A stretch of DNA of 64,000 bases from Verrucomicrobiota bacterium (lineage in GTDB: Bacteria > Verrucomicrobiota > Verrucomicrobiia > Opitutales > UBA953): NCBI GenBank assembly GCA_015061905.1, contig SUVQ01000006.1:1-64000 (forward strand), in the 5' to 3' direction. The notes under the pieces are model-generated. The model was given only the letters and a program-made list of their open reading frames with translations. It was not told the DNA's origin and did no database searches. Positions 2,113 to 50,143 of this stretch are shown one piece after another. Numbering within the stretch: the stretch's first letter is position 1; every line of letters starts with the position of its first letter. The translations under genes and the position numbers were made by a program.

Positions 2113-2152
2113 AAAAAACGTTCCCGAAAAAATGCTCGGGAACGTTTTTTTG
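2113..2152 (+). terminator. Rho-independent terminator made of an inverted CGGGAACG pair
   Basis: Stem AACGTTCCCGA / TCGGGAACGTT (2117-2127 and 2136-2146), 8-base loop, A-run before and T-run after. The stem carries one copy of the over-represented 8-mer on each arm. It lies between the converging RRM gene and SpoU methyltransferase, and the flanking A and T runs suit both strands. Confidence 0.85.
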
Positions 2153-45206: not shown

Positions 45207-45589
45207 GGGGATGTTCCGGATTCGATCTCGGTTCGGAGGTTGCGACGGCACGCGGACGATGACACTCGGCGTCCTAAAATATGTGTCAGCCAATCAAATG
45301 GCAAAAACAACACCATCGCGTTTGAACGCAGCAATGCGTTCGCGCTTGCCGCCTAATAGCTGCGGCACGGTCACGCCCGCCTACGCCTGCTAAGCGGCCG
45401 GGCTGTTAAAAAAGCAGGTAAAACCTCGAACTTGTCAGCGTTCCCGCGAGGCTAAAAACGGGAACGCGGATAGGTGTTTCCGGGCGCCCTCGCTCTAAGA
45501 AACACCGAAATTCAATCGAGCGGCTAAGCGTGTAGAAGTTTCAGCTGAAAGACCGGGAGACGCGGGTTCAACTCCCGCCATCTCCACCA
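45207..45589 (+). ncRNA. ssrA: Transfer-messenger RNA (tmRNA)
   Basis: 383 nt. The 5' end GGGGATG pairs with CATCTCC before A-CCA at the 3' end. The tRNA-like half has GGATTCGAT near the start and GGGTTCAACTCCC near the end. The tag frame reads G-K-N-N-T-I-A-F-E-R-S-N-A-F-A-L-A-A, then TAA TAG, ending in the ALAA degradation signal. In the pseudoknot region an inverted CGGGAACG pair makes a perfect 9-bp helix (45438-45446 with 45459-45467). tmRNA with SmpB rescues stalled ribosomes. Confidence 0.96.
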
Positions 45590-48112: not shown

Positions 48113-48538
48113 ATGAGTGAAATTCCGAAGATTCACGTGGTTGCCGCCGTCGTTGTTCGCGCCGACGGGAAAATTCTCTGCGCACGGCGCGGGAACGCCA
48201 AAAATCCGTGTGTCGCGTGGAAGTGGGAATTTCCCGGCGGGAAAATCGAAGTCGGAGAAACACCGGAAAGCGCACTTGCACGGGAAATTCGCGAGGAAAT
48301 GAATTTTCACGTTGTCGTCGAAAAACACATCTCGCGCGTGAATCATTCCTACCCGAGTTGCGAAATCGAAATGGACGCATTTTTCTGCGTTCCCGCCGAC
48401 GCGTGCTCGATGCCGGAATTACACGAACACGTCGAAATCCGCTGGCTTGCGCCCGAAGAACTTCCCGCTCTTGACTGGGCGGAGGCGGACAAACCCGTTG
48501 TCTGTGCCTGCACAAAAAAGCTTTCCGGTTCGGCATAA
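48113..48538 (+). CDS. Nudix hydrolase, MutT-like
   Basis: 141 residues. The Nudix box is complete at 42-64 (G-G-K-I-E-V-G-E-T...A-R-E-I-R-E-E-M-N-F). EFPGGK and a late WLAPEELPALDWAEAD resemble MutT 8-oxo-dGTP diphosphatases, which clean the nucleotide pool. Sequence outside the box is consistent but does not prove the substrate. A terminator made of an inverted CGGGAACG pair follows. Confidence 0.88.
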   Translation: MSEIPKIHVVAAVVVRADGKILCARRGNAKNPCVAWKWEFPGGKIEVGETPESALAREIREEMNFHVVVEKHISRVNHSYPSCEIEMDAFFCVPADACSMPELHEHVEIRWLAPEELPALDWAEADKPVVCACTKKLSGSA

Positions 48539-48562
48539 ATTCCGCTTTTTCTACAAAAAAAC

Positions 48563-48595
48563 GCGTTCCCGTGAAAATTATCTTCACGGGAACGC
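48563..48595 (+). terminator. Terminator with perfect 13-bp stem from an inverted CGGGAACG pair
   Basis: GCGTTCCCGTGAA (48563-48575) and TTCACGGGAACGC (48583-48595) are exact complements with a 7-base loop. An A-run precedes, giving a U-run on the minus strand. It lies between the converging Nudix and FecR-like genes, and best fits termination of the minus-strand FecR-like gene. Confidence 0.75.
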
Positions 48596-48658: not shown

Positions 48659-49477
48659 TTAGCGATTTCCGACGGATGCGGCAGAATTTACATCGGGACG
48701 GGGGCGGTCTACGTTATAGCTATCGCCCTCAACGGTTGCCGTGTGGAAATAAAGCGGATCCGTAGCGAATTTGGAAATACGGTCGTTATCATAATTTTCG
48801 CCGAAATCTCCGGAACCGGAAGCGAACGCGTCTGCAACCTGTTTCGAAAGGATACCGGAAACTCGCTCGAACTTAAGTTGCCCCGCGGAGTTGATGCTTA
48901 TCGAGCGTCCGGCGGTCAGAGAAATACCGGCGCGACCGGTAGGCGTTACTTCAATTTCGCCGTCGATGCAACCGACCGCAACGGAAGTATCGCCCACGGA
49001 AGTATAAAACGTCGTTCCCTTCACGGCGACATCTCCGGCACGCGTCTTAACGACAAGGCGCGAAGAAGGAAGAAGCTTTGCAACTTTGAAAAAGGCTGTT
49101 CCCTTGACAAGGCGCAGAGTTGTCTGCGAGCCCGCAGTGCCCTTGGGTTCTTCTTTGAAGGAGGAGAAATCTTTTCCTTCGACGGCGCTCGGGTCGTTTT
49201 GCTCAAACTGAGCGAGGTCGATTGACGTATTCGCTTGCAGGACGATGACGGTTCCGTTCCCGAGGACAATCTTCGCGGAAGCGTCTTTGCCTGTCGATAC
49301 GCGCGTGTTTTCAAGAAACGTCGCGCCGGCAACAAGTTTTTTTTCGGCACCGCCGGCGACGGTATATACAACGTTCCCGCTAACTTCGTTCACGCAGATT
49401 TTTCCCGGAGCGGCGAACAATGCCACTCCGAATGCGAGCACGGTTGCGAAGACGGTTATCAGCTTCTTCAGTTTCAT
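48659..49477 (-). CDS. Exported FecR-domain protein
   Basis: 272 residues from ATG 49477, chosen because the signal peptide (MKLKKLITVFATVLAFGVALFA-A) begins there. A FecR domain covers about 30-200: EVSGNVVY, ASAKIVLGNGTVIVLQANTSIDL, TLRLVKGTAFFKV and VKTRAGDVAVKGTTF. Unlike anti-sigma FecR it has no N-terminal cytoplasmic domain and no ECF sigma gene is near, so a structural or sensory envelope role is more likely. The C-terminal 60 residues are Asp/Asn/Ser-rich. Confidence 0.82.
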   Translation of the reverse strand: MKLKKLITVFATVLAFGVALFAAPGKICVNEVSGNVVYTVAGGAEKKLVAGATFLENTRVSTGKDASAKIVLGNGTVIVLQANTSIDLAQFEQNDPSAVEGKDFSSFKEEPKGTAGSQTTLRLVKGTAFFKVAKLLPSSRLVVKTRAGDVAVKGTTFYTSVGDTSVAVGCIDGEIEVTPTGRAGISLTAGRSISINSAGQLKFERVSGILSKQVADAFASGSGDFGENYDNDRISKFATDPLYFHTATVEGDSYNVDRPRPDVNSAASVGNR

Positions 49478-49635
49478 AGTGTAGTTGGTTTTTTCTGGTT
49501 GTTTTTGAATTATAATTTTCGAGAACTTGAATGAGCCTCTCACTAAGTTCTGTGTCTGAGTTAGATTCAAAATCCGTTTCCTTGCAACAAAATTCTACCG
49601 CCTAAGTATTATTACCGTTTTGATAGAAAATAATC

Positions 49636-49663
49636 CCGCCCCGAACGTTTCCGTCCGGGGCGG
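49636..49663. other. GC-rich hairpin in the FecR-like leader region
   Basis: CCGCCCCG and CGGGGCGG pair at 8 bp, with an inner ACG/CGT. It is about 160 bp upstream of the FecR-like start, followed on the plus side by ACTAACTTAA (49680-49689). The same order of hairpin then ACTAACTTAA occurs at 10104-10156, ahead of another exported protein gene on the same strand. Confidence 0.6.
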
Positions 49664-49696
49664 TTTAATACTACTTAACACTAACTTAATCTATGC

Positions 49697-49727
49697 TCGG
49701 GAACGAAAGCTAAGCCTTCGTTCCCGA
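49697..49727. other. Inverted CGGGAACG pair in a divergent intergenic region
   Basis: TCGGGAACGAA (49697-49707) and TTCGTTCCCGA (49717-49727) form a perfect 11-bp stem with a 9-base loop. It sits between the divergent FecR-like gene and the small basic protein gene, with no T-run, so it is not a gene-end terminator. Confidence 0.75.
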
Positions 49728-49947: not shown

Positions 49948-50058
49948 ATGGGCAAACAATACAATAAGGAAAACAAGCGTCGCCGCCGTGCCGCTTACCA
50001 AAAACGTTGCAAAGAACGTATCGCAGAAGCTATCGCGGCGTCGAAGAAACGCAAATAA
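49948..50058 (+). CDS. Very small, highly basic protein
   Basis: 36 residues: MGKQYNKENKRRRRAAY at the start, then QKRCKERIAEAIAAS and a KKRK tail. Arg and Lys make up over a third. It has a good promoter, a defined leader and its own terminator, so it is very likely expressed. Size and charge resemble ribosome-associated mini-proteins. I recall similar short MGKQYNK-type ORFs in Verrucomicrobiota but cannot name a family; ribosome binding is inference. Confidence 0.7.
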   Translation: MGKQYNKENKRRRRAAYQKRCKERIAEAIAASKKRK

Positions 50059-50068
50059 ACCGTTTCGC

Positions 50069-50112
50069 GCGTTCCCGCGTCCGGCTTTCGGCGCGCGGGA
50101 ACGCTCCTTTTT
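50069..50112 (+). terminator. Terminator of the small basic protein gene, inverted CGGGAACG pair
   Basis: GCGTTCCCGCG (50069-50079) and CGCGGGAACGC (50094-50104) form an 11-bp stem, followed by TCCTTTTTT. It lies 10 bp after the stop codon. Confidence 0.85.
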
Positions 50113-50143
50113 TGCTTTTTGCCTGATTTTTCTCACATTTCCG

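Follow-up and report, generated by a model that had tools for sequence, protein, structure and literature searches.

Inverted pairs of an abundant octamer as predicted intrinsic terminators in a genus of gut Verrucomicrobiota

The use of inverted pairs of DNA uptake signals as transcription terminators is established in both Neisseria and the Pasteurellaceae (PMC1852404, PMC2397512, PMC3630211, PMC12616744). In Neisseria, the DUS (GCCGTCTGAA) is an abundant word that forms close inverted pairs behind genes, with a concentration in tail-to-tail gaps (PMC1852404, PMC2397512, PMC3630211). These pairs, which act as or are predicted to be Rho-independent terminators, make up ~55% of the hairpin terminators. 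The corresponding share for the USS pairs (AAGTGCGGT / ACAAGCGGT) of the Pasteurellaceae is 16-29%; their loops are variable, and the word itself carries an AT-rich extended flank (PMC1852404). For both groups, Kingsford et al. reported a preference for the +- order of the paired copies (PMC1852404). With 5918 copies in 2.4 Mb, the kingDUS of K. oralis has the highest density reported in PMC3630211. Another type of abundant word is HIP1 (GCGATCGC) of cyanobacteria, a very dense iterated octamer that is palindromic, linked to a methyltransferase and lost in some lineages; it reaches 1000-2000 copies per Mb, and ~1 per kb has been put forward as its saturation level (PMC4390886). Use in terminators is, as far as we found, not a described property of HIP1. 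Canonical intrinsic terminators combine a GC-rich stem-loop with a U-run ~20-40 nt behind stop codons, and their stems are free to vary.

Here we describe a comparable arrangement in a gut verrucomicrobial genome (G000; 2.08 Mb, 17 contigs), using a sample of stretches amounting to 765-845 kb and whole-genome pattern counts. The window, i.e. the whole stretch of 64,000 nucleotides that was analysed at the outset, is G000:C11:1-64000. As the closest named relatives of the genome comprise Opitutales MAGs recovered from the gut of sheep, goat, deer and buffalo along with Candidatus Spyradosoma merdigallinarum, it is assigned to the genus that includes Candidatus Spyradosoma. The word in question is the octamer CGGGAACG, which is non-palindromic, i.e. 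differs from its reverse complement CGTTCCCG. As in Neisseria, it is abundant and occurs in close inverted pairs behind genes with a tail-to-tail concentration. However, both the word and the phylum are different, the pairs have the order CGTTCCCG...CGGGAACG (hereafter RC>F, the converse being F>RC) rather than +-, and they provide ~29% rather than ~55% of the terminator-like hairpins. Moreover, termination is predicted here, and an uptake function, known for the Neisseria DUS, would hold by analogy. The density of 3.15/kb exceeds that of kingDUS, although a DUS is a longer word than this 8-mer. The Pasteurellaceae resemble this genome in the share of terminators and in their variable loops, whereas their pair orientation is reversed relative to that seen here, their extended flank has no counterpart in the coding copies and the words lack sequence similarity. 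The likeness to HIP1 lies in the density and in the loss from some lineages, but CGGGAACG is not palindromic and is used in terminators. In their position and form the hairpins agree with canonical intrinsic terminators, except that the stem is fixed by a genome-wide word. Several features by which DUS and USS are recognized are found here, namely at least 1000 copies, presence on both strands, clade-specificity, an excess of inverted pairs and competence machinery, while two that are typical though not strictly defining, the +- order and extended A/T flank tails, are absent. We found no report in the open-access literature of such pairs, of this word or of uptake sequences in Verrucomicrobiota or Opitutales, which is not proof of their absence.

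Abundance and distribution of the octamer

The window holds 230 copies of CGGGAACG against 6.7 expected, and the whole genome has 6550, i.e. about one per 318 bp. They are divided between the strands at a ratio of ~1:1 (3233 forward and 3317 reverse), and the reversed word, counted as a control, occurs 85 times. In the sampled stretches the word is denser in noncoding (4.3/kb) than in coding DNA (3.1/kb) and is uniformly spread, with a per-4-kb variance close to the mean. Beyond the 8-mer itself, the coding copies have essentially only a G at position -1 and a C at +1, and no extended flank. Six of the eight members of the genus have the word at high copy number, and it is at background elsewhere; the two low-copy members, G001 and G006, have 1362 and 546 copies, respectively. 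Across stretches the word correlates weakly with GC skew (rho 0.43), and gene strand is correlated too. A Chi- or KOPS-like reading, in which the word would be oriented with replication, is unlikely, there being no strong strand bias. A candidate related dialect, CGTACCCG in genus g2 (G008), was dropped because all 31 matches lie on one strand of a single 20-kb stretch (L066, G008:C2:1-20000), with spacings divisible by three; their source is a giant repetitive ORF.

Inverted pairs behind stop codons

Gene calls over 765 kb of the genome yielded 626 genes (86% coding). Pairs of opposite-orientation copies with a gap of 0-20 were sorted by order, and those within 80 nt after a stop codon were counted as gene-end pairs; the null model assigned every copy a random position in the class it came from (coding, gene end or other), in 200 placements. 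We found 48 gene-end RC>F pairs against 5.8±2.3 expected, the maximum over all placements being 12. In the same 765 kb, neither F>RC pairs (4 vs 6.4 expected) nor direct pairs (4 vs 12.1 expected) are enriched at gene ends, and RC>F pairs inside genes are at chance (29 vs 30.9 expected). The first-pass annotation of the window had proposed that the inverted pairs serve as terminators and had named in advance a comparison with random placement of the 8-mer as the test of this claim; the claim survived that comparison and is strongly supported by the excess. Tail-to-tail gaps are the richest in pairs (27 in 92 gaps, 29 per 100), followed by tandem gaps (39 in 438, 9 per 100) and head-to-head gaps (2 in 78, 2.6 per 100). 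The genome as a whole has 193 RC>F and 63 F>RC pairs, a preference that energy alone is insufficient to explain. As a separate observation, F>RC pairs with a gap of 0-20 are depleted inside genes of the sample (12 vs 31.1 expected), which could result from frame preference.

Several features of the pairs are those of RNA elements. A U-run was scored wherever six or more of the 10 nt following the hairpin were T. By this measure, 38 of the 45 single-sided gene-end pairs have one on the transcribed strand and 19 have one on the opposite strand. Read in the transcript, the base pair that adjoins the motif towards the loop is C-G in 21 cases, U.G in 16 and C.A in 2, and the one outside the motif is G.U in 18, G-C in 14, A-U in 7 and A.C in 3. 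Where the transcript forms a G.U pair, the opposite strand would have an A.C mismatch. Neither a DNA palindrome nor a structure formed by that opposite strand would give such a bias, and the prevalence of G.U over A.C wobbles speaks for an RNA structure under selection. The folds of the pairs have z values of -3 to -8.5, and the commonest loop among the noncoding pairs is of 12 nt (26 of 66). A simple hairpin-plus-U-run search of 624 gene ends recovered 177 terminator-like elements, 51 of which (~29%) contain a perfect RC...F pair, with ~70% being without the motif. We consider it highly probable that the gene-end RC>F pairs are intrinsic (Rho-independent) terminators, as predicted, and polymerase would be expected to stop at them. 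In the mechanism we propose, copies in opposite orientations would often lie close together because the word is so common, and a CGTTCCCG...CGGGAACG pair situated just behind a stop codon could thereby be co-opted as a terminator stem. The transcript would fold as CGUUCCCG, a loop of ~12 nt that often extends the stem and CGGGAACG, followed by the U-run, and between some convergent genes a U-run would be available on both strands. Alternatively, the 3' hairpins could protect mRNA ends rather than terminate transcription.

Other readings of the pairs fare less well. It is very unlikely that they function as DNA-level palindromes, be they protein sites or cruciforms, that merely lie in the gaps between genes: the pairs are indeed perfect palindromes in DNA, and the word is denser in noncoding regions, but the strand-specific U-runs and the G.U/A.C asymmetry would be invisible to DNA binding, the enrichment is limited to the RC>F order, and head-to-head gaps, where promoters lie, are not enriched. 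We likewise give very little credence to the pairs being, in general, copies of one dispersed REP- or MITE-like repeat. Such a family does exist, as nine hairpins of the 845-kb sample (L009:5364, L009:6452, L037:9810, L037:15035, L007:19303, L028:8626, L030:17257, L029:2282 and L039:7479) all have a 12-nt loop of the CGGCTTCGGTCG type and shared flanks, most having downstream and five upstream sequence in common; hence, the 12-nt peak in loop length is partly an effect of this repeat. However, loops and flanks are unrelated among the remaining gene-end pairs, and ~40 pairs vs 5.8 expected are left after removal of the family; thus, this reading is refuted for most pairs and true for a small family. 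In this repeat the terminator hairpin is mostly followed by TTTTTTTTCGCGCGAAGCCGC..AAGCCGCGAAGTTTTT, and genes ending in a common CGCCGCCGCAAATAATTT precede several of the copies. Random coincidence of an abundant word, while compatible with the chance-level rate of intragenic pairs (29 vs 31), is refuted with near certainty by the gene-end count, which was reached in 0 of 200 simulations, and by the recurrence of the enrichment in G001, where the word is a fifth as dense.

In the window, three hairpins with the 8-mer on each arm had been reported at gene ends, and their coordinates, folds and the gene calls confirm all three as lying behind genes. Hairpin 1 (2112-2151, both strands) is a predicted bidirectional intrinsic terminator formed by an inverted CGTTCCCG/CGGGAACG pair between convergent genes. 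Its word copies are at 2119-2126 (-) and 2137-2144 (+), and the predicted stem of 16 bp, including an A-U extension (2112-2127/2136-2151; -22.5 kcal/mol), has fold z values of -6.5 and -6.7 on its two strands and U/A runs on both sides. The gene calls that converge on it end at 2094 (+) and 2184 (-); they match an RNA-recognition-motif RNA-binding protein (1669-2094, +; NF058537, E 4.5e-26, below the curated cut-off) and a SpoU/TrmH-type RNA methyltransferase (2184-2975, -; TIGR00186, E 1.5e-26, also below the curated cut-off). Hairpin 2 (48563-48595, -), another predicted intrinsic terminator, has the perfect 13-bp stem (48563-48575/48583-48595) exactly as originally described, with word copies at 48564-48571 and 48587-48594 and fold z values of -8.2 (+) and -8.6 (-). 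U-runs had been claimed for all three hairpins; this is borne out for the first and third, but that of the second is confined to the minus strand (A7 at 48555-48561). Therefore, hairpin 2 should end the minus-strand gene at 48659-49477, which encodes a putative surface or LapA-type protein (weak sub-threshold matches) and has its 3' end facing the hairpin and U-run. It should not end the plus-strand gene for a MutT-like Nudix hydrolase (48113-48538; NF006530, E 5.3e-28, below the curated cut-off), which stops 25 nt upstream and for which it is a hairpin without a U-run. Hairpin 3 (50069-50113, +), also a predicted intrinsic terminator, has a stem with one bulge (50069-50104; fold z -3.2). Its word copies occupy 50070-50077 and 50096-50103, and the U-run covers 50108-50113. 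The hairpin is placed at a gene end because a 36-aa ORF (MGKQYNKENKRRRR...; 49948-50058, +), read from the sequence and missed by the gene caller with its minimum of 60 aa, has its TAA at 50056, 10 nt before the hairpin; this ORF has no NCBIfam match. In RGIG6493 (L017), both arms of hairpin 2 are kept with a change in the outer base, and the arms of hairpin 3 are kept with a changed loop.

Two further elements of the window lie apart from these terminators. An RC>F pair with a gap of 12 at 45439-45466 (+) is situated inside the tmRNA gene (45207-45589) and is not a gene-end terminator; it is unchanged in RGIG6493 (L017) and may be fixed inside a tmRNA helix. A noncoding stretch at 49634-49726, in a 470-bp gap, combines a GC-rich hairpin (~49634-49667) with an F>RC pair (49698-49726) lacking a U-run; it is possibly a small RNA, for which there was no Rfam match.

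Conservation and decay within the genus

Alignment of 108 kb of G000 and G007 (91.5% identity) showed that 83% of the coding word copies are unchanged in G007, as against 58% of permuted control 8-mers, and that the same is true of 79% of the noncoding copies vs 44% of control 8-mers. The divergence falls from ~10% to 2-7% exactly across the 8 positions, and at third codon positions it is 4.7% inside the word vs 18.3% outside. The word is therefore kept by something other than protein coding, and it is actively maintained. In comparisons with G007 and RGIG6493, the arms of the hairpins are largely retained, whereas their loops and flanks diverge. The number of RC>F pairs per genome is 15-227 in the genus, and 265 further genomes of the order have 0-2 apiece.

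Of the coding copies in G000, 17% persist in G001, vs 22% for the control, so that they are not maintained there, whereas the arms of gene-end pairs are kept in 5 of 8 cases, a small number. A survey of 416 kb of this genome gave ten RC>F pairs, all of them noncoding; nine follow a stop by no more than 80 nt, and U-runs accompany most of the ten. The word has a density of 2.4/kb behind stops vs 0.57 in genes. Whole-genome counts give 74 RC>F vs 7 F>RC pairs in G001 and 15 vs 0 in G006, where simple arithmetic from the copy numbers predicts ~5 and ~1, respectively, by chance. As the gene-end pairs of G001 persist while single copies are at the control level, the terminator function is separable from the genome-wide maintenance of the word.

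One-mismatch words are in excess in G001, with 2.5 per perfect word vs 0.36-0.73 in the high-motif genomes, and 34 of its 45 aligned coding copies are also perfect in G000 (control 24%). These observations favour the copies in G001 being a decayed ancestral set, which is a simpler reading than independent gain, i.e. two independent amplifications of the word in the genus. An M3-peptidase tree places G001 beside G000, but this placement is contradicted by a PilB/PilT/PilB2 tree and by gene-by-gene identity, both of which group G001 with G006 and then G003; an exchange probably affected the M3 peptidase gene in G001. Identity between G001 and G000 is 86-97% for some genes and ~80% or lower for most, the uneven stretches including the M3 locus on C46 and several at 84-91%. 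The conflicting trees and uneven identity suggest that lineages within the genus have exchanged genes. G001, and probably G006 as well, descends from the last common ancestor of the high-motif genomes.

What may keep the word in the genome

We propose that a genome-wide process would keep this non-palindromic, genus-wide word at ~1 per 318 bp, and sequence-biased DNA uptake in natural transformation is the probable candidate for it. Under this proposal, the 8-mer would be a DUS/USS-like signal, with a surface receptor, probably a type IV minor pilin, preferring word-bearing DNA. Transformation by DNA of kin would then spread and keep the copies, with the terminators as a by-product, which is compatible with their reading as terminators. 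Consistent with this are the restriction of a non-palindromic word to one genus, its 6550 copies being equally shared by the strands, and a conservation box of 8 bp with sharp edges that includes third codon positions. The four lowest-density stretches, to which annotation was limited, carry glycosyltransferase, Schlafen/AlbA, Rhs and Ntox16 genes, so that variable or recently acquired DNA may be poor in the word, and the gene exchange visible as conflicting trees points the same way. ComEC, DprA, PilB, PilT, PilC/GspF and 7 prepilins, including a prepilin cluster, are also present, and minor pilins are clustered on C3 (136-139 kb). However, competence and pilus genes are found equally in motif-free genera; accordingly, the presence of ComEC or pilins fails as a discriminator, being seen everywhere we looked. 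Also against uptake, G001 and G006 retain competence genes though their single copies are few or decayed, the coding copies lack an extended USS-like flank, and the RC>F order is opposite to the +- preference of Neisseria and Pasteurellaceae (PMC1852404). As regards the pilus genes themselves, each of the six high-motif genomes has exactly 7 prepilins and no extra PilB/GspE-type ATPase, and the low-motif G001 and G006 have 10-11 prepilins and such an extra ATPase; the pilus/secretion repertoire is possibly linked to keeping the word.

The first-pass annotation had taken the gene-end pairs known from Neisseria and Haemophilus DUS/USS as support for an uptake signal. The parallel lends little weight to that reading, because any very abundant non-palindromic word supplies ready-made hairpin arms and, consequently, co-option into terminators fails to identify the purpose of the word. 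The step from terminator to uptake signal is a plausible analogy. In a less likely, though conceivable, alternative, the 8-mer would resemble HIP1 and owe its maintenance to DNA methylation or a mismatch-repair bias, with terminators co-opted from it in the same way. Its density, comparable to or above that of cyanobacterial HIP (PMC4390886), its even spread and its loss from a sub-lineage, as reported for HIP1, would all fit. Nevertheless, CGGGAACG is not a palindrome as HIP1 is, and its density is ~3x the saturation proposed for the latter.

Word-built gene-end terminators as such are already known, and what is new here is the word, the phylum and the reversed orientation. We see an even chance that this genus has a hitherto undescribed DUS system, to our knowledge the first outside Pseudomonadota and among those of highest density, and that the pairs of G001 have outlived the genome-wide drive, thereby separating the roles in uptake and termination. 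Terminators of this type are documented from two families of proteobacteria, in both of which the word acts as a signal for DNA uptake; their occurrence in a third, very distant lineage, with another word in reverse orientation, suggests that the route from abundant word to hairpin to terminator is a general evolutionary path. Termination and maintenance are hard to separate in Neisseria and Haemophilus, for which, as far as we found, no decayed relative was compared, whereas G001 permits a direct test of copies selected for termination against those kept genome-wide. Gut Verrucomicrobiota thus become candidates for sequence-biased natural transformation.
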